Source: Pedobacter frigidisoli
Lineage (GTDB): Bacteria; Bacteroidota; Bacteroidia; Sphingobacteriales; Sphingobacteriaceae
Assembly (NCBI RefSeq): GCF_004331675.1
Contig: NZ_SJSN01000001.1
Span: 248,001 to 312,000 of the forward strand
Direction of reading: 5' to 3'
Length of the DNA: 64,000 bases
Part shown: positions 6,645-62,715 of the stretch, piece after piece
Layout of the letters: each line of letters opens with the position of its first letter
How positions within the stretch are numbered: the stretch's first letter is position 1
Made by a program: the position numbers and the translations under genes
Notes under the pieces: generated by a model
Database searches by the model: none
What the model saw: the letters and a program-made list of their open reading frames with translations, nothing else
What the model was told of the DNA's origin: nothing

Positions 6645-6672
6645 CGTAAAATAGGCCACATACATGAAATAT

Positions 6673-6755
6673 CGTCATTACGAGGTACGAAGCAATCTTA
6701 AAGCGATCGCTGGAGTACCCATAGTAGCAAGATTGCTTCGTACCTCGCAATGACG
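6673..6755. repeat. Palindromic intergenic element, copy 1 of 4
   Basis: The arms CGTCATTACGAGGTACGAAG and its near-exact reverse complement (CTTCGTACCTCGCAATGACG) enclose about 40 bases. The same arms recur at 12358, 19347 and 62627. It lies between two terminator hairpins downstream of the iron-uptake operon. There is no coding capacity; this is a REP/MITE-like element. Confidence 0.8.
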
Positions 6756-6799
6756 AGATGGTTCGGCAAAACGCCAAACCTCAGAATGACAGGGTAATT

Positions 6800-12346: not shown

Positions 12347-12357
12347 CTTAGTCAGAT

Positions 12358-12418
12358 CGTCATTGCGAGGCACGAAGGAATCTCATTTATCTAAATTACT
12401 TCGTACCTCGCAATGACG
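12358..12418. repeat. Palindromic intergenic element, copy 2 of 4
   Basis: Arms CGTCATTGCGAGGCACGAAG and TTCGTACCTCGCAATGACG enclose a short AT-rich middle. This is the shortest copy (61 bp). It fills the space between the convergent barrel gene and methyltransferase gene, where it could also act as a bidirectional terminator. Confidence 0.8.
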
Positions 12419-12421
12419 AAT

Positions 12422-13121: not shown

Positions 13122-13193
13122 GAAAGCTGAAAGGAAAAAGCTAAAAGACTAAAGCTGAAAGACCAAAGCGCAAAGCAAAAAGACTAAAGTCTA
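13122..13193. repeat. Short oligomer repeat of the AAAGCTGAAAGACTAAAG type
   Basis: About 70 bases built from degenerate copies of AAAGCTNAAAG, AGACTAAAG and similar 7-9-mers, between the methyltransferase start and the metallo-hydrolase stop. A related stretch lies at 20030-20089. Confidence 0.6.
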
Positions 13194-15332: not shown

Positions 15333-17174
15333 CTATCCTCTACCACCTCTCGATGGTCTTCCTCCACCTTCAGAGCCACCTCTTTGTTGTTGCTGTTGTT
15401 GTTGTGGCGCTTCAACTCTTCGTTGTTCTGTACGTTGTTGCTGCTGTTGCGACCTTTGTTGTTGAGCTTGTGCATCACGCTGTGCCCTTTGTTGGTCGGC
15501 TTGAGCAGAACGTTGTTGTTGCTGCTGTTGCGCTTGTTGGGCACGTTGCTGATCGGCTTGCTGGCTGCGCTGTTGCTGTGCTTGTGCATCACGTTGCGCT
15601 CTTTGTTGCTCTACTTGGGCAGAACGTTGCTGTTGCTGCTGTTGCGCTTGTTGGGCACGTTGCTGATCGGCTTGCTGGCTGCGTTGTTGCTGAACTTGCG
15701 CATCACGTTGTGCTCTTTGTTGCTCTACTTGGGCAGAACGTTGTTGCTGCTGCTGTTGCGCTTGTTGTCCACGTTGCTGATCAGCTTGCTGACTGCGTTG
15801 TTGCTGAGCTTGCGCATCACGTTGAATACGTTGTTGCTCTACTTGGGCAGAACGTTGTTGTTGATTAGCTTGAACATCACGTTGAATACGTTGTTGATCT
15901 TGGCTCATGCGATCTTGCTGACCACGACCAGTACGTTGTTGCTGCATTTGTTGAGCACGTTGTTGATCCTGACTTCTATCAACATTAGTCTGTCCATTTT
16001 TTTGATCTACGCTGTTTGCATTTCCACGTTCAACTCTTCCACCAGCACTTCTATTGTAAACATCACCTCTAGTATTAGGCTGATTATTATTGTTATTATT
16101 ATCTCTTCCTACACCAGATTCATTCCCTCTGTTTGGCTGAGAACTACGATTATCATTTCTTTGACCAAACCTATTATCATTGCTGTTTCCATTAGGGCGA
16201 TTGGCATTATTATTATCTCTGCCAACACCTGCATCGCCACCTCTATTTGGCTGAGCTCCGCGGCTGTCGTTTCTTTGGCCAAATCTATTATCGTTACTGT
16301 TTCCACTCGGGCGATTTGCATTGTTATTATCTCTTCCTCCTCTATTGAAACCAGCATTACCCTGCTCAAATTTTCTTGGTGCAGCATTGCGATTATCTAC
16401 AGCATTACGCTCTGGTCTTGGTCTGTAAATCGAAACCTCTCTGCCGCCAATTCTACTTGCGCCAGGTCTGCTGCTTTGATTGTACCTGTAAACAGTAACA
16501 TCACGATTGGTTGCACGGCGAATATCCTCCGCTCTTGGTCCACCATAATAATTCCTTCTGTTATACACATAAGTATTGTTTATAATGGTGGTGTTACGGA
16601 TGTAAACATTGTTGCGCCCATAATCATATCTAGGGAAAGCATTAATGTAAATACTGGCTTGTGGAATAAAGTTCCAGCAAAATTCTGGCACCACATAACG
16701 ACGACCAAAACTTAAATTAATGTTTATGCTTGGTGCCATTGGTGCCCAACCATATTGGCCATCGCCGCTTCTCCAGTCTACCCAAGCTGGTCCCCAATTG
16801 GTATCTGGCATCCAAATCCATTGGCGATAACTATTAATTACCCATCTACCGTAGTGGAAAGGTGCCCAGCCCCAATCATAATTCGAAACCCAAGTATTTC
16901 CATACTCCGTCATTGCCCAGCGGCCATTGGTATAATACGGGCGGAATTCATTTTGATCTACATCCGGACGCCAAACATAACCATACTGTGGATCCTGAAT
17001 CCAGGTTCCATAAGGGGAAAGTTCGTCGTAAAAGGTTTGCATAGATACATTACCAGTGCTGTAACCATCATCCTGGTAATTATCTTGGTAGTCTTGTGCC
17101 CTGACTAAGGTTGTGGTTCCGGCAAGGAGCGAAAAAAGCCCCAGCACAATTGCCGCAGATTTCAGTGTTTTCAT
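15333..17174 (-). CDS. DUF6600-type exported protein with long Q/R/N-rich tandem repeats
   Basis: 613 residues. Signal peptide (cut near VRAQ, residue 27). Residues about 38-190 are a compact Trp/Tyr/Pro-rich domain (DELSPYGTWIQDPQYGYVWRP, WAPFHYGRWVI, WIWMPDTNWGPAWVDWR), the pattern I associate with DUF6600. Then follow an Asn/Arg-rich repeat (about 280-360, unit about NRPSGNSNDNRFGQRND) and a Gln-rich coiled segment (about 420-590) with a 38-residue unit beginning RSAQVEQQRAQRDAQ, ending in a Gly/Arg tail. The repeats should be extended or coiled, possibly binding polymers or nucleic acid. The function is unknown. It is divergent from the RsmI-like gene at 17454. Repeat copy number probably varies between strains. 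Confidence 0.75.
   Translation of the reverse strand: MKTLKSAAIVLGLFSLLAGTTTLVRAQDYQDNYQDDGYSTGNVSMQTFYDELSPYGTWIQDPQYGYVWRPDVDQNEFRPYYTNGRWAMTEYGNTWVSNYDWGWAPFHYGRWVINSYRQWIWMPDTNWGPAWVDWRSGDGQYGWAPMAPSININLSFGRRYVVPEFCWNFIPQASIYINAFPRYDYGRNNVYIRNTTIINNTYVYNRRNYYGGPRAEDIRRATNRDVTVYRYNQSSRPGASRIGGREVSIYRPRPERNAVDNRNAAPRKFEQGNAGFNRGGRDNNNANRPSGNSNDNRFGQRNDSRGAQPNRGGDAGVGRDNNNANRPNGNSNDNRFGQRNDNRSSQPNRGNESGVGRDNNNNNNQPNTRGDVYNRSAGGRVERGNANSVDQKNGQTNVDRSQDQQRAQQMQQQRTGRGQQDRMSQDQQRIQRDVQANQQQRSAQVEQQRIQRDAQAQQQRSQQADQQRGQQAQQQQQQRSAQVEQQRAQRDAQVQQQRSQQADQQRAQQAQQQQQQRSAQVEQQRAQRDAQAQQQRSQQADQQRAQQAQQQQQQRSAQADQQRAQRDAQAQQQRSQQQQQRTEQRRVEAPQQQQQQQRGGSEGGGRPSRGGRG
15505..15960. repeat. 114-bp tandem repeat coding a Gln-rich unit
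   Basis: The landmark GCAGAACG occurs at 15505, 15619, 15733 and 15847, exactly 114 bases (38 codons) apart. Units differ by a few substitutions (Ala/Val, Glu/Asp). Related shorter motifs continue to about 15960. Confidence 0.85.
16085..16345. repeat. Second 114-bp tandem repeat, Asn-rich, in the same gene
   Basis: The landmark GGGCGATT occurs at 16195 and 16309, again 114 bases apart, within a repeated unit coding NRPxGNSNDNRFGQRND. A third, degenerate unit lies near 16085-16160. Confidence 0.75.
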
Positions 17175-18193: not shown

Positions 18194-18244
18194 ACACGCG
18201 GTATGTTTGGTGATTAAGAATTATCAGAAAACGAATGTTTGAAG

Positions 18245-18620
18245 TTTTTGGCAATTGCAGTCCCGCCATTTGCTACAATCTTTTTTGAGTATGATTAATA
18301 AAATTCAGTGCAGAAAACTCAGTTAATAGCTAACATTAACAATTGATGTTAATGGAAAGAAAAAAAGTATTTCCGCGTCTGTCAGGTTTACTTAACTCAA
18401 AACTGTGCCCATTAAATCGTTCAGTATTAAAAAACGACAGGCTTGTTGCTCTTCTTTTACTGCAAATCGCAACCTTTAATAATTGCAGAACATTTTATAT
18501 CTAAACTGGATTGAAGCGGTATCCCCGATTTAAACATCGGCACTTTCCATTTTTGTAGTATGCTTGCTTGTTGCACAGTTTTCATCGGGATTTAGTGGAA
18601 AGCCAGACGAACATTAACCT
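18245..18620 (+). repeat. Long intergenic element, copy 1 of 5
   Basis: Non-coding. It contains the landmarks shared with the other copies, in the same order: AGTCCCGC, TGTCAGGTTTA, GGATTGAAGCGGTATCC and AAAGCCAGACGAACATTAAC (divergent from AAAGCCCGACGGACATTAAC). The middle is the most divergent of the five. It fills the convergent gap between the RsmI-like and nadD genes. The ends are approximate. Confidence 0.6.
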
Positions 18621-18724
18621 CATCCCTGTTCTTGCTTTACAAATGAATTTATTTACTGTTACTTTCTTTAGAGACTACGAAGTTCTCCTTTCGCTTATCC
18701 CTTTTAAAACTTCGTAAGTCGGAT

Positions 18725-19318: not shown

Positions 19319-19346
19319 TTTCCTTTTACTTACTTGTTTGCTCTTT

Positions 19347-19433
19347 CGTCATTGCGAGGCACGAAGCAATCCTACTACTGTGGGTTTTAAATTTAACAAT
19401 CGCATTAAGATTGCTTCGTGCCTCGCAATGACG
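19347..19433. repeat. Palindromic intergenic element, copy 3 of 4
   Basis: The arms CGTCATTGCGAGGCACGAAG and CTTCGTGCCTCGCAATGACG are exact complements over 20 bases, with about 47 bases between. It sits between gmk and nadD, two genes of one operon, so the hairpin would be in the shared mRNA. Confidence 0.85.
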
Positions 19434-19452
19434 ACCGACAAGGCAAAATGCC

Positions 19453-20029: not shown

Positions 20030-20089
20030 AGACTAAAGCTTAAAGCAGAAAGTCCAAAGCTTTAGTCTTTGAGCTTTAAGCTTTAGGCT
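20030..20089. repeat. Short oligomer repeat between yicC and gmk
   Basis: Built from AAAGCTTAAAG and GACTAAAGC words and their reverse complements (GCTTTAGTC, GCTTTAAGC), so it can fold into a hairpin. It belongs to the same family as 13122-13193. Confidence 0.6.
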
Positions 20090-20091
20090 TC

Positions 20092-20967
20092 CTATAATAC
20101 ATTCAATAACTGTTCTTTAATTTTTTCTAATTCTTCTTTCATGCCTACCACAAACTGTTGCATTTGTGCATCATTAGCTTTTGCACCCATGGTATTAATT
20201 TCTCTTCCAATTTCTTGCGAAATGAAGCCCATTTTTTTACCATTTGCCTCTTTACTGGCTAAAGTTTGCAAGAAATAATCGCAATGGCTTTTTAAACGAG
20301 TTTTCTCTTCTGTGATATCAATTTTATCGATGTAATAGATCAACTCCTGCTCAAAACGATTTTGATCGATGTTAACCTTACCAACGGCATCCTCTAAAAA
20401 TTGAGAAAATTTATCACGAATAGCAGAAATTCTTTTTGGCTCTAATTCTTCTACAGATTTAAAATAAGAAAGGATATTTTTGATTCTCAATTCCAGATCA
20501 GCTTTTAACACCGCTCCTTCATCTTCTCTAAAATTATTGAAGTTGGCTAAGGCTTCTGTGAAGATTTTATATAAATGATTCCATTCATCTTCTCCAACGC
20601 TCTCTTCCTTGTAAGAAATTACATCAGGAAAAGTTAGGGCAGTTTGCAGCAAATTGCTGCTATTTGCACCCAATTCGTTGTTAACAGAAATTAGTTGATT
20701 ATAGTAATGAGTAAGCAAAGCCGTGTTGATAGTTGCACCCGTAACTTCGCCATTGGCACGTTCTACGTTAATGCTCAAACTAACTTTTCCGCGTTCGATA
20801 TCTTTACTGCAGATATTGCGCAGAATTAATTCTTTATCAGAAAAAGCTTTAGGATATTTTAAATTTAACTCAAGAAACTTACTGTTGAGCGATTTGATTT
20901 CGACACTATACTTCGCATTCGCATAATCGGCTGTTGCTAAGCCGTATCCTGTCATGGATTTTATCAT
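20092..20967 (-). CDS. YicC-family endoribonuclease
   Basis: 291 residues from the ATG at 20967, giving the family's conserved start MIKSMTGYG; an in-frame TTG two codons upstream would lie inside the promoter box. N-terminal YicC-like domain (about 1-155, with EIKSLNSKFLELNLKYP) and C-terminal DUF1732 (about 205-291, with SHCDYFLQTLASKEANGKKMGFISQEIGREINTMG in pieces, ending LLNVL). YicC proteins are cytosolic hexameric metal-dependent endoribonucleases. It heads the yicC-gmk-nadD operon. The promoter box directly adjoins the start codon. Confidence 0.9.
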   Translation of the reverse strand: MIKSMTGYGLATADYANAKYSVEIKSLNSKFLELNLKYPKAFSDKELILRNICSKDIERGKVSLSINVERANGEVTGATINTALLTHYYNQLISVNNELGANSSNLLQTALTFPDVISYKEESVGEDEWNHLYKIFTEALANFNNFREDEGAVLKADLELRIKNILSYFKSVEELEPKRISAIRDKFSQFLEDAVGKVNIDQNRFEQELIYYIDKIDITEEKTRLKSHCDYFLQTLASKEANGKKMGFISQEIGREINTMGAKANDAQMQQFVVGMKEELEKIKEQLLNVL

Positions 20968-27271: not shown

Positions 27272-27292
27272 TTTCTAAATCAAAATAGATCG

Positions 27293-27325
27293 AATGCTTC
27301 CGCCAAAAACGGGAGCATTTTTTTT
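27293..27325 (+). terminator. Terminator of pyk
   Basis: The stem AATGCTTCCG / CGGGAGCATT with one mismatch and a seven-base loop is followed by eight T. It lies 21 bases after the stop codon and 32 bases before the tRNA. Confidence 0.8.
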
Positions 27326-27356
27326 GCTAAGAAAATTATAGATTTGCAACCGATCC

Positions 27357-27441
27357 GGAGAGGTGTCAGAGTGGTCGATCGAGCACGCTTGGAAAGCGTG
27401 TGTACTGCAAGGTACCGCGGGTTCGAATCCCGCTCTCTCCG
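27357..27441 (+). tRNA. tRNA-Ser (anticodon GGA)
   Basis: About 85 bases. Acceptor stem GGAGAGG / TCTCTCC with discriminator G, anticodon arm CACGC-TTGGAAA-GCGTG with anticodon GGA, a variable arm as expected for class II tRNA-Ser, and T arm GCGGG-TTCGAAT-CCCGC. The 3' CCA is not encoded (GCATA follows). It decodes UCC and UCU. Confidence 0.95.
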
Positions 27442-27543
27442 CATAAAGAAAAATTAGGATTCGGTCTATCCGGCCAGTTACACCTTGAGTTAGCTTAATA
27501 AATGTGGTGCTACTAGATAGATCTGAATCAGGTTTGTAAATTT

Positions 27544-27930
27544 TGGAAATGGAAAGTTCGGTGAAAATGGCGGCCAGTAGTCCCGCTAACGTTCCAAGCA
27601 CCGAAAAACCCGTGAGGAAACTAAATATCTACATAAAACAACTGTACAAATGCACAATTCGGTGGCTTTTCACTTATATCGGGTTTATAAACTAAAGTAA
27701 TCACTTTTTTGAAACAAGCATAAAGTTCTAAATTATAAACCTTATTTCTGAGCTTATGCATTGGCGTTTAGCAGCCGTAAATAGTAGCAAAAATCAAGTT
27801 AATAAACGGGATTGAAATGATATCCTTTTTGATGCAGTGAATTTAGATTTCGTTTAACATTCTCAAAAAGATTAAATGTAAAGCCCGACTAACATTAACT
27901 GCTCCACAGGTTTGGCTTTCAAAAACATAT
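27544..27930 (+). repeat. Long intergenic element, copy 2 of 5
   Basis: Non-coding, about 390 bases. It shares with copy 3 long stretches in order: ATGGCGGCC, TAGTCCCGCTAACGTT, CACTTATATCGGGTTTA, GGGATTGAAATGATAT and the end AAGCCCGAC..ACATTAAC..ACAGGTTT.GCTTTC. The core CTTTTTG..CAAAAAGATTAAATG can form a hairpin. It lies downstream of tRNA-Ser; the remaining gap to 28384 has no other clear feature. Confidence 0.7.
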
Positions 27931-28383
27931 TTATCTTAATGAAAAGGCTCAACCGTTTCTCAACAACTGAGCATTTGAATATATTAATCCCATTACTTTT
28001 TTGAGATCGCTACACTTGGTGGTCTTGTTTTGCGAATTCACCATGCGAAATCTGCGACCAGTTACAATATTCGAAATCATAAGATGAGCTTTGATTATCA
28101 TCGTACATTTTCATTTTAAAAAACTATACCGGACATTTATAAACCCCCTCTCAAGCTTTCTGTCGAAGAAGTTTCAGTGCCTAAATCAAATCTCTGAGGT
28201 AAACGATTATTGGCATTTTCGTAGAGCATTGGTTTATAGTTAAAGCCTGGCACATTACAAACTGTTAATATCCAAACCTTATGAGGAGAAAAGGCAAGAA
28301 AATGAACACTTTTTGTATCATCATTAATACCTATCATTTTACAAAACAGTCTTATTTTTATGCCAAAGATTAACCCACAGATT

Positions 28384-30513
28384 ATGAATAAATATTGGCT
28401 TACGGTTACGGCTTGCGCTTTAGCCATTACAGCAAATGCCCAACAACAAGCTTTAACAGCGGAAGATTACAAGCGTGCTGAAAGTTTTATGGGATACAAT
28501 ACTTCGAAGTATATCGATAACCCAGGTGTTAGCCCAACTTGGCTGCCAGGCGACAAGTTTTGGTATATAAATAAAAACGAGGCAGGAACCCAAACTTATT
28601 TAGTAGATCCGGCAACAAAAACCAAAACACCTACCACCGAATACAAAAGTGTTTCTCCTCCACCGAGAAGAGCCAGAAATAATGAAGAGTTATCGCCAGA
28701 TGGAAAAAAATCGATCCTAATAAAAGATTACAATCTGTATGTTAAAGATATTGCTACAGGAAAGCTTACGCAGCTAACTACTGATGGAATAAAAGATTAT
28801 GGTTACGCCACAGATAATGCTGGCTGGAAACACAGTGATGCACCAATTTTACGCTGGTCACCAGACTCAAAAAAAATAACAACCTTTCAACAAGATCAAA
28901 GAAACTCGAAAGACATGTATTTGGTAAGCACTAATGTTGGTGCACCAAAACTAAGCGCTTGGAAATATCCTTTGCCAGGTGATAAGGAAATCGCTACGAT
29001 TAGAAGAGTGATTATCGATGTTGAAAATCCTAAGATTATTTCCTTAAGCATTCCACCAGATCAACATCGTGGAACCTTAAGCGATGACATTTCTAGCAGC
29101 GGTACTTTCGATGATATCGATTGGAAAGCGGATGGCTCTGAAGTAGCTTTCGTTTCTACTTCTCGTGATCATAAAAACGAAAAATTCCACATTGCAAATG
29201 CCGAGACAGGTGCTGTTCGTGAGGTTTTTGAAGAAATTGTTAAAACACAATTCGAATCTGGACAGGGCGCAATTAATTGGAGATATCTTGCCGCTTCAAA
29301 GGAGATTATTTGGTATTCGGAACGAGATAATTGGGGTCACCTTTATCTTTATGATGCTACCACTGGAAAAGTAAAAAACCAGATTACAAAAGGCGATTGG
29401 GTGGTTACTCGTATGGTTAAGGTTGATGAAAAAACAAGAACAATTTATTTTATGGCTAACGGGCGTGAAAAAGAAAATCCATACTTCGGGCATTTCTATA
29501 AAATAGGTTTCGATGGAAAAAACTTAACTTTATTAACTCCAGAAGTTGGAAACCATGCGGTTACTATCTCTCCGACAGGAAAATATTTTATTGATAGCTA
29601 TTCTCAACCAAACGTTCCTCAAGTAGCAGTTCTTCGTAGTCTTGATGGAAAATTAATTACCACATTAGAAAAAACAGACGTTAGCCGATTGGCAGCAACA
29701 GGCTGGAAAGCACCTACACCAGTTTCGGTGAAAGCGCATGATGGTAAAACAGATATTTATGGCCTAATTTTTACACCTACAAAAATGGATGCTGGAAAGA
29801 AATATCCGGTGATCGATTATATTTATCCTGGTCCGCAGGGCGGAAGCGTAGGCAGTTGGTCTTTTTCGGCATCAAGAGGCGATCATCAAGCTTTGGCAGA
29901 ATTGGGATTTATTGTTGTGGTAATTGAGGGAACGAGCAATCCAAATCGCTCTAAAAGTTTTCATGATATGACTTATGGCAACATGGCCGAAAATACTTTG
30001 CCCGATCAAATTACAGCCATTAAACAGCTTTCTGGAAAATACCCAATTGATACCACAAAAGTTGGAATTTGGGGACATTCGGGTGGTGGTTTCGCAACTG
30101 CGACTGCGATGTTCCGTTATCCCGATTTCTTTAAGGTTGGCATTTCAGAATCTGGAAACCATGAAAACAGAAACTATGAGGATGATTGGGGCGAACGTTA
30201 CAATGGCTTAGTAGAAAATGCTGATTACGAAGCGCAGGCCAACCAAAATTATGCAAAAAACCTAAAAGGAAAATTAATGCTCGTTCATGGAATGATGGAT
30301 GATAATGTGCCGCCTTACAATACGCTTTTAGTTGTAGAAGCATTAGAAAAGGCAAACAAATCTTTTGATTTGGTGATCTTTCCTAATAGCGCACATGGCT
30401 ACGGCCCTTATTCACCCTACATGATGAGAAGAAGATGGGATTATTTTGTTCAAAATTTACTGGGCGCACAAATACCGCATGATTACCAAATGACGGGTAC
30501 AGTTATTAAATAA
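28384..30513 (+). CDS. S9-family prolyl peptidase (dipeptidyl peptidase IV type), exported
   Basis: 709 residues from the ATG at 28384, which begins a good signal peptide (MNKYWLTVTACALAITANAQ); an upstream ATG at 28360 would add eight unlikely residues. A beta-propeller (DPPIV N-terminal domain, about 80-440) is followed by an alpha/beta hydrolase domain (about 480-700). Catalytic Ser566 lies in GHSGGGFA, the Asp in MMDDNVPPYN and the His in SAHGYGPYS. DPP IV cleaves X-Pro or X-Ala dipeptides from peptide N-termini, here in the periplasm. Single gene with a terminator 18 bases past the stop, flanked on both sides by copies of the long intergenic element. Confidence 0.9.
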   Translation: MNKYWLTVTACALAITANAQQQALTAEDYKRAESFMGYNTSKYIDNPGVSPTWLPGDKFWYINKNEAGTQTYLVDPATKTKTPTTEYKSVSPPPRRARNNEELSPDGKKSILIKDYNLYVKDIATGKLTQLTTDGIKDYGYATDNAGWKHSDAPILRWSPDSKKITTFQQDQRNSKDMYLVSTNVGAPKLSAWKYPLPGDKEIATIRRVIIDVENPKIISLSIPPDQHRGTLSDDISSSGTFDDIDWKADGSEVAFVSTSRDHKNEKFHIANAETGAVREVFEEIVKTQFESGQGAINWRYLAASKEIIWYSERDNWGHLYLYDATTGKVKNQITKGDWVVTRMVKVDEKTRTIYFMANGREKENPYFGHFYKIGFDGKNLTLLTPEVGNHAVTISPTGKYFIDSYSQPNVPQVAVLRSLDGKLITTLEKTDVSRLAATGWKAPTPVSVKAHDGKTDIYGLIFTPTKMDAGKKYPVIDYIYPGPQGGSVGSWSFSASRGDHQALAELGFIVVVIEGTSNPNRSKSFHDMTYGNMAENTLPDQITAIKQLSGKYPIDTTKVGIWGHSGGGFATATAMFRYPDFFKVGISESGNHENRNYEDDWGERYNGLVENADYEAQANQNYAKNLKGKLMLVHGMMDDNVPPYNTLLVVEALEKANKSFDLVIFPNSAHGYGPYSPYMMRRRWDYFVQNLLGAQIPHDYQMTGTVIK

Positions 30514-30530
30514 TTCGCTAATACATTTGC

Positions 30531-30563
30531 AAAAGGCTCCGAAAATTTCGGGACCTTTTTTTT
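30531..30563 (+). terminator. Terminator of the DPP IV-type gene
   Basis: AAAAGGCTCCGAAA / TTTCGGGACCTTTT with one mismatch, followed by a run of T. Confidence 0.7.
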
Positions 30564-30605
30564 GTTAAAGATTTTTTTAAAATGACCGACCTCATTTCTA
30601 CAGAA

Positions 30606-31000
30606 TTTGGAAATGTATGGTTCGGTAAATGATGGCGGCCGATAGTCCCGCTAACGTTTCAAGTCCCGAAAAAACTTGTGCAAACATTTAAGTATGCCTA
30701 TAAAAACAAAAATATAGATGCTTAAATTCGGGAGCTTTACACTTATATCGGGTTTAGATACCGAGGTAAATCGTCTTTTTGAGAACGAGCAAACTTAGTT
30801 TCTCTGCAAAATTTAAGGCTAACGTACTGGCGTTCTGCAACCATGAATAGTAGCAAAAAACTAGGTTATTAAACGGGATTGAAATGATATACTTTTTGCT
30901 CTCGTATACTAGATTCAGCAAGAACTTTCACAAAAAGATTAAATGCAAAGCCCGACGGACATTAACAATTCTACAGGTTTTGCTTTCCAAAAAACATTCA
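30606..31000 (+). repeat. Long intergenic element, copy 3 of 5
   Basis: About 395 bases, non-coding, the best match to copy 2. Landmarks: GATGGCGGCC, TAGTCCCGCTAACGTTTCAA, CTTATATCGGGTTTAGA, AAACGGGATTGAAATGATAT, CACAAAAAGATTAAATG and AAAGCCCGACGGACATTAAC. It sits between the DPP IV-type terminator and the 31111 gene. Confidence 0.75.
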
Positions 31001-31110
31001 TTTTGAAAGCAGCTCGCCACTATGGCCAAAAGGATGGCCTCGCTTATTAAAATTTATTACGCCAAACAAAGATTAACTTTCACAGTTAGGTTAGATATAA
31101 CAATACTTCG

Positions 31111-44670: not shown

Positions 44671-44729
44671 TTTATCATATCTTTTTGAAAAGCAGTTTCA
44701 GCATTTCATTTTAAGGTTAGTCCTTCTTT

Positions 44730-44990
44730 ATACTGCAAGTCCGCTTCCAAAAACCTGTGCAACAGGCAAGCAAGTTAATCAAGCATTAAAACAGTGATTA
44801 AATTGGAATGCGGGCTTTTCGTTTCAATAAGGTTTAGATTACTTCGTTTACCTTACCTGAGTGATGAGTACAGGTAACATAATTATGCTATCTTTTTTTG
44901 ATATTTACTAGCGTTAACGATGGAAGCGACATCCTTTTTGGCTTTTTCTGCCAAAAAGATAGAGCGAACAGCGTGTTAAACCGAAGCTTT
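44730..44990 (+). repeat. Long intergenic element, copy 4 of 5
   Basis: Non-coding. Landmarks: CAAGTCCGCTTCCAAAAACC, TGTGCAACAGGCAAGCAAG, GATGGAAGCGACATCCTTTTT and a strong hairpin TCCTTTTTGGC..GCCAAAAAGATAGAGCG. It shares TGTGCAACA.GCAAGCA with copy 5. The rest of the 44671-45219 gap shows nothing else. Confidence 0.6.
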
Positions 44991-62399: not shown

Positions 62400-62605
62400 T
62401 ACAGAAATAAAAGGATTTGAAAAGCAGGTTTCTGTGCATTTCGGCCCCGAAAGTCCTGCCAACCGCTTTACTTAGCCGAAAGAAACCTGTGCAACAAGCA
62501 AGCATTCCTATAACAAAATAGAAACAAATGCTTAATTCGGCTTTCGTGTTCGCTTTTGTCAGGTTTAGGAAACTTTAAATTGTGCTCAGAACTAACAAAC
62601 GAGTT
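62400..62605 (+). repeat. Long intergenic element, copy 5 of 5
   Basis: Non-coding, 5' part of the element only. Landmarks: TCGGCCCCGAAAGTCCTGCC, CCGAAAGAAACCTGTGCAAC, AAATGCTTAATTCGGCTTTC and TTGTCAGGTTTAGGAAACTT. It lacks the GATTGAAGCG core seen in the other four and is followed directly by palindrome copy 4. Confidence 0.55.
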
Positions 62606-62626
62606 GCTGAACTTTTATAAAGCGGT

Positions 62627-62710
62627 CGTCATTGCGAGTCACGAAGCAATTAATGCGATGGGTTATTGAATTGCTATCTTTTTAGGATTGCTTCGTACCT
62701 CGCAATGACG
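62627..62710. repeat. Palindromic intergenic element, copy 4 of 4
   Basis: Arms CGTCATTGCGAGTCACGAAG and CTTCGTACCTCGCAATGACG around a middle of about 44 bases. It ends six bases before the terminator of the protease gene. Confidence 0.8.
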
Positions 62711-62715
62711 GAAAA

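Follow-up and report, generated by a model that had tools for sequence, protein, structure and literature searches.

Within Rfam, the Flavo-1 family (RF01705) is filed as a small-RNA (sRNA) gene. In the excerpts available of earlier reports it was rated a probable RNA ('y'; PMC2864571) and was among the most abundant sRNA families (PMC9029176). The accessible sections of a transcriptome study of the fish pathogen F. psychrophilum (PMC9723704) offer no clue to the role of Flavo-1; they describe its matches as lying indistinctly in sense and antisense, many of them outside transcribed regions, and note an overlap of Flavo-1 matches with several structured 5' transcribed regions. Within a limited search of the literature on Flavo-1, as far as the sources were available, no proposal of the family as a DNA repeat was found. 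Here we describe two elements of around 395 nt that flank the gene for a DPP IV-type protein in Pedobacter frigidisoli, within a stretch of 64,000 nt (contig NZ_SJSN01000001.1, positions 248,001 to 312,000; this whole stretch is called the window, and coordinates refer to it). The catalogued Flavo-1 motif is part of these elements, which makes it a component of a larger, inverted-pair DNA repeat. This repeat is probably a dispersed family, similar to repetitive extragenic palindromic (REP) sequences and miniature inverted-repeat transposable elements (MITEs), that acts as a single-stranded DNA hairpin and is mobilised in trans.

The first-pass annotation of the window had pointed out two look-alike non-coding copies on either side of the DPP IV gene, sharing words in the same order and at the same spacing, and both observations were borne out by the sequence and by blastn. 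When 27481-28000 was compared to the window, 27542-27937 aligned to 30606-31004 over 407 columns with 74% identity (E 1.4e-56); this was the only second long match, and the next-best one had an E-value of 0.008. Considering also the sequence itself and the covariance model matches described below, we place element 1 at 27538-27937 and element 2 at 30602-31004, both as whole head-to-head inverted pairs without a strand of their own. The copies were said to have no open frame, and indeed none of the listed open reading frames (ORFs) of at least 80 aa spans either element; a 108-aa ORF on the minus strand (27275-27601) overlies the tRNA-Ser together with the beginning of element 1. The claim that terminal repeats were lacking was not confirmed. 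By eye, element 2 starts with TTTGGAAA (30606-30613) and ends with TTGCTTTCCAAA (30980-30991), and element 1 starts with TTTTGGAAA (27541-27549) and ends with GGCTTTCAAAA (27914-27924), following the general pattern TTTGGAAA..CTTTYCAAA. The ends are thus inverted repeats (TTTGGAAA..TTTCCAAA in element 2, approximate in element 1), and they recur in four other pairs. A 501-nt query around copy 1 recovered at least 24 matches in the genome by blastn (E <= 0.001; 40 of the 104 candidates scored), many of which covered one half alone, suggesting that the copies are composite.

The composition was resolved with a covariance model, R1, that was built from 20 aligned units of this genome, all of them Flavo-1 matches. 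It covers 132 positions, against 76 in the Rfam model, and its alignment took in the right unit of copy 1 and no left-hand parts. The right unit of element 1 (27800-27928, plus strand; tail with CTTTCAAAA) scored 97.9 bits, this copy having been in the alignment, and the right unit of element 2 (30867-30996, plus strand) scored 89.2 bits. The Rfam model itself recognizes 27800-27894 with 53.6 bits, above its gathering score of 42, and 30867-30961 with 39.6 bits (E 3.5e-6), just under that score. The left units, for which no Rfam match was found at E <= 1, were recovered by R1 in reverse orientation as a Flavo-1-like hairpin plus tail, at 27538-27690 (minus strand, 54.0 bits, E 1.5e-8; outside the training sequences) and at 30602-30759 (minus strand, 61.1 bits, E 5e-10), and both matches include the tail that reads TTTGGAAA on the plus strand. 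Since the left parts match R1 on the minus strand, each element consists of a minus unit, a spacer and a plus unit, that is, of two homologous hairpins on opposite strands, with the hairpins inward and the tails outward. The building block is a hairpin of around 76 nt or more, followed by a tail of around 45 nt that ends near GCTTTTCAAA. Outside the hairpin, conservation is highest at the end of the tail, TTGCTTTTCAAA, and falls after CAAA, as judged from the 67 of 129 matches that could be anchored with a pattern that itself demanded most of the TTGCTTTTCAAA letters, though not the preceding TTG. A subtype (B) carries the same hairpin with other flanks, as seen by eye. Of the 10 loci that were readable in other genera (mostly a single Flavobacteriaceae-like genus), 9 have AGCTCC after the hairpin. 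Given these differences, the part common to all is the hairpin.

The stem of the hairpin comprises 17 pairs and is strongly supported by covariation. Among 125 distinct units, aligned on the structure model, the stem was formed in 93.5% of the cells and all 17 pairs had changed on both sides. The covariation score was 0.694, whereas shuffling lowered it to 0.201 and sliding to 0.146 at best. Orthologous loci were counted repeatedly in this set, as they were in the orientation count for four relatives, the arm/tail/loop comparison and the tRNA set, the flank comparison and the neighbour count given below. A cross-genus alignment of 20 units, 18 of which came from outside the genus, was paired in 97.9% of the cells (both sides changed in 12 of 17 pairs; score 0.587), and the first MAFFT alignment of 20 units gave 94.0% and a score of 0.661. 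The internal loops are conserved in a strand-specific manner: GNA is found opposite GNA in 96 of the 125 units, and in 122 of them a G opens the second loop at its lower end and faces A. Tandem G.A motifs are stable in DNA as well as in RNA. The stem is mostly preceded by TAAAC and followed by GACT (71 of 125 units) or GGCT (17). The conserved islands had earlier been ascribed to a structured RNA or to protein-bound DNA, and a covariance model with a covariation check had been proposed. The check came out strongly positive and the islands proved to be the arms of a covarying structure, not of one RNA of around 390 nt, however, but of two hairpins on opposite strands. The contrary picture that was then sketched, of random drift without covariation and with target duplications, does not fit the data, considering the covariation and the fact that no duplication was found in the four pairs in which it could be sought.

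The nature of the changes within the stem bears on the question whether the hairpin acts as RNA or as DNA. Stem changes in RNA often pass via a G-U pair. In the large alignment, G-U accounted for 19 of 1844 standard pairs (1.0%), and the first and the cross-genus alignment contained 2 of about 312 and 3 of about 329, respectively. When one badly paired position was left out, G-U (18) was about as rare as A-C (10). For comparison, 34 of 282 stem pairs (12%) were G-U in 12 distinct tRNAs from the fetched loci; the deficit was significant (Fisher p 2.6e-6) when computed against the first five of these tRNAs (10/115). Moreover, the units show no bias towards the sense strand. Among single units located between codirectional genes, 6 were sense and 11 antisense in this genome, and 9 were sense and 13 antisense in four relatives and the window, orthologues being repeated. 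The gene calls behind these numbers, and behind the overlap counts below, follow a simple ORF rule and not the annotation, and the rule scored one element of the window as divergent owing to an ORF over a tRNA. Finally, one transcript could never hold both opposite-strand hairpins in their conserved form. Taken together with the reported position of the F. psychrophilum matches (PMC9723704, in part), the rarity of G-U, the opposite strands and the lack of a sense bias lead us to favour single-stranded DNA as the acting form of the Flavo-1 unit, a view that derives from patterns of change. A structured RNA, in which each hairpin would be transcribed, from its own promoter or within an mRNA, and would bind a protein or process transcripts, the pair thus representing two opposite-strand RNAs, could account for the strong covariation, the strand-specific internal loops and a site at which the arms are nearly constant while the loop diverged (L086 and its counterparts, see below), and it agrees with the probable-RNA rating (PMC2864571) and the coincidence with structured 5' transcribed regions (PMC9723704), in the available parts of both. 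Given the near-absence of G-U pairs, the single units in both orientations and the many matches outside transcribed regions in F. psychrophilum, we consider it rather unlikely.

Additional copies were found within the window. Units at 18219-18393 (minus, 71.7 bits with R1) and 18499-18648 (plus, 66.8 bits) constitute a third inverted pair (18219-18648), and a fourth (44679-44982) is made up of a unit at 44679-44839 (minus, 71.6 bits) and a subtype-B hairpin at 44906-44982 (plus, 47.0 bits). The latter is matched by RF01705 with 57.1 bits, above the gathering score, the R1 match starting at 44917. A single unit is located at 62411-62570 (minus, 47.6 bits), so that R1 recovers four inverted pairs and one single unit in total. 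Depending on the search, 40, 150, 33 or 22 candidates were scored per genome and the match counts are therefore lower bounds. With 150 candidates scored, this genome holds at least 92 Flavo-1 matches, 69 of them over the cut-off, and at least 136 R1 matches, the two sets overlapping. The units are mostly intergenic, as only 1 of 52 units in 37 loci of this genome overlapped an accepted ORF. Many of them occur singly, with one end. Where neighbours lie less than 400 nt apart, the minus-plus arrangement prevails: among 129 matches of this genome and its relatives it was found in 24 of 27 cases (14 of 14 in this genome and 10 of 13 in the relatives), next to two minus-minus and one plus-minus. 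For this count one duplicate locus was removed (with it, 25 of 28) and orthologous loci of relatives were counted apart. In one other genome (G068), five units alternate as -+-+- with a period of 344 (L119, 1157-1978), similar to an array of bacterial interspersed mosaic elements (BIMEs).

R1 matches were found in 61 of the 99 genomes of the genus, often for nearly all of the 33 candidates scored, and in none of the other 38. This split is sharp and genus-wide, and the Y1_Tnp domain follows nearly the same division. The suspicion that related words occur in other Bacteroidota was confirmed, as RF01705 was recovered in 28 of 198 genomes sampled across the phylum, representing 17 of 102 genera, and in none of 14 control genomes. 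In a genus of another family (g8, presumably Flavobacterium), nine listed genomes had at least 21 or 22 matches among the 22 candidates scored.

Comparison of related loci shows that the repeat varies between species. The DPP IV gene was detected in all 99 genomes of the genus at E <= 0.001, in some via distant homologues alone. Searching the loci of this gene in 29 relatives (the gene with around 1500 nt per side) by blastn gave no match to element 1 or 2. Of these loci, 24 have a recognizable downstream epimerase gene (a match of just 28 nt in one of them) and 5 the pyk/tRNA-Ser side, and the gap between the DPP IV and epimerase genes goes down to around 120 nt in relatives compared to around 600 nt here. 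The simplest reading is that the elements were gained in this lineage, loss in the other lineages being a possible alternative. At variance with the earlier reading as one structured element, the copies belong to a dispersed and apparently insertable repeat. The DPP IV gene can be ruled out as a cargo carried between two direct copies, as the 29 related loci keep the gene without a blastn match to either. R1 found one weak unit (36.2 bits) upstream of the gene in one of these loci (L060), and units beyond the next gene in three (L056, L057 and L064). The roughly 400 nt that separate element 1 from the DPP IV gene (27930-28350) have no second copy in the genome and were therefore ruled out as a part of element 1; five relatives retain the tRNA-Ser upstream, and in these the DPP IV gene lies much nearer to it than here. 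Carriage by plasmids or phages was discarded as well, since the plasmid and phage collections held no match to copy 1 at E <= 1e-5.

When 200 kb were compared between four close species, many units were common to one site and some were present in one species and absent from another. The four-species alignments show the absent sites, the intergenic DNA being too diverged for exact borders of empty sites to be drawn. At one shared site the tail was kept (38/44) while the arms and the loop of the hairpin differed between species, with 15-16 of 25-27 and 4-5 of 70-71 positions in common, respectively. The unit at 143049-143154 of genome G020 has the same site and tail as those at 136554 of G041 and 148042 of G011 (concatenated coordinates) and a stem and loop of another hairpin version, with CCCGAT..ATCGGG at its top; the hairpin seems to have been swapped in one piece. 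Over 15 orthologous comparisons, in which some sites were reused, identity was around 80% for the arms, 78% for the tail and 46% for the loop. Constraint at fixed sites thus coexists with turnover. In the unit at L086 (1501-1629) and its counterparts at L114, L116 and L125, the arms are almost unchanged across four species and the loop has diverged, making this unit a candidate for a function in the host.

The obvious candidate for mobilisation is the REP-associated tyrosine transposase (RAYT), a Y1/HuH enzyme that would copy the family by cutting single-stranded hairpin DNA. The hairpins, inverted pairs, arrays and copy number are as described for REPs and BIMEs (PMC2817692, in the part available), and Y1_Tnp is present in 56 of the 61 R1-positive genomes of the genus compared to 2 of the 38 R1-negative ones. 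This association has not been corrected for phylogeny, however, and five R1-positive genomes, two of them incomplete, lack Y1_Tnp. Adjacency fails: R1 matches were found in 3 of 40 long-Y1 loci, 0 of 29 short-Y1 loci and, in genus g8, 1 of 30 Y1 loci, compared to 4 of 29 for the (longer) DPP IV loci that served as control. The flanks of 14 Y1 genes of the YIH[QN]NP type carried, by eye, other palindromes in many cases, which is in line with the Bacteroidetes subclass flanked by structures of its own that is described in the available part of PMC6006769. The same holds for the one gene with a Y1_Tnp match in this genome (155 aa; L051, 1489-2270, contig C60): after it come several hairpins of a different repeat, with TAGCCCC..GGGGC words, and no Flavo-1 match was found there at E <= 1. 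A fragment resembling the Flavo-1 tail was seen by eye around 2283-2336 of that locus. The presence association points in the opposite direction, yet on the position of the repeat, away from Y1 genes, many of which carry other palindromes, we disfavour the RAYT/Y1 transposase and regard it as an improbable mobiliser. Equally little weight can be given to a conventional MITE, a non-autonomous remnant of a DDE transposon for which the terminal repeat TTTGRAAAGC would be the true signal and the hairpin its cargo. The inverted ends, the presence and absence at sites and the conservation of the TTGCTTTTCAAA tail end, with the reservation made above on its anchoring, would fit such an origin. However, subtype B and the copies in other genera have the hairpin but lack this tail, one-ended single units are common, no autonomous relative was found near the loci, and in the four pairs with anchorable ends there was no target-site duplication, the words shared by the flanks having a mean length of 3.25 compared to 4.2 at random.

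Considering the above, we prefer the single-stranded DNA hairpin that is mobilised in trans. The block would fold when its strand is exposed, for example as lagging-strand template, and would then be recognized by an enzyme that requires true Watson-Crick pairs and internal loops closed by G.A. With one hairpin per strand, recognition could be the same at both ends of an element, and either a whole element or one block might be copied or moved in trans. More tentatively, Flavo-1 may be not an RNA at all but the recognition hairpin, in single-stranded DNA, of a recombination or copying system specific to the Bacteroidota, in which the hairpin on each strand defines the mobile unit, the tail persists at a given locus while one hairpin core can take the place of another, and the enzyme falls outside the known Y1/RAYT pairs; this extension is possible, though we would not be surprised to see it fail.

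Several observations weigh against the preferred single-stranded DNA hairpin. The argument from G-U pairs is statistical, its tRNA control is small (12 tRNAs), and template-switch repair of a palindrome could also yield a low G-U share. The 125-unit and cross-genus alignments were fitted to the same structure model. Lone copies fold as DNA no better than shuffles (z +0.6 to -1.9 for 8 strands), for which reason thermodynamic stability was dropped as evidence and the claim for a structure rests on covariation. By the simple ORF rule, 3 of 41 elements in the four relatives and the window lie inside an ORF. Many copies occupy the same place in related species, implying that movement is slow or rare, and the lack of a target-site duplication in the four pairs adds to this list. 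Finally, no recurrent mobile-gene family was found among the ORFs near the loci of this genome and the genus (L003-L050 and L082-L140), in which no search by individual insertion sequence families was made; the recurring ORF clusters (top 25) came either from loci that overlap at one place or from orthologues in several species.

Other repeats were also observed in the window. Four palindromic ones of the form TCGTCATTGCGAGG..CCTCGCAATGACGA (6669-6759, 12357-12419, 19346-19434 and 62626-62711) resemble the CGTC-tagged REPs of PMC3733652, which, in the part available, are apparently without a dedicated transposase. Long tandem repeats of 114 nt occupy 15456-16320, in a region rich in TTG/CTG words that is perhaps repetitive coding sequence, and short degenerate repeats of the AAAGACTAAAGCTGAAAG type lie at 13122-13189 and 20030-20094.

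If Flavo-1 is a DNA repeat, tallies of sRNAs in Bacteroidota are too high, and those looking for its function should turn to enzymes of DNA instead of RNA partners. With the G-U test, catalogues of candidate RNAs can be screened cheaply to separate DNA hairpins from RNA. With respect to the catalogued family, the right-hand hairpin of each element corresponds to RF01705 (53.6 and 39.6 bits, against the gathering score of 42), whereas the unit described here has an extra tail, is often part of an inverted pair and shows DNA-like pair changes. Like REPs, BIMEs and REPINs, the units are mostly intergenic palindromes with over 100 copies, alternating orientation and arrays. They differ in size (around 76 nt or more plus the tail, compared to 20-40 bp for a REP according to the available part of PMC3733652), in the foot of the hairpin, which is mostly GACT (AGTC on the other strand) and not GTAG or CGTC, and in the lack of an adjoining RAYT (3/40, 0/29 and 1/30 Y1 loci). 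Because the tests of tag, size and RAYT fail, we do not class the element as a REP, though it is REP/BIME- or MITE-like. The MITEs of DDE transposons share with it a length of a few hundred bp, the lack of coding capacity, inverted ends and dispersal, but not the lack of a target duplication (four pairs) and of an autonomous partner near the loci, nor a hairpin that occurs elsewhere without the tail. The attC sites of integrons, finally, are folded single-strand recombination sites with unpaired positions, and in these features the Flavo-1 unit, in the reading proposed here, would be comparable to them.

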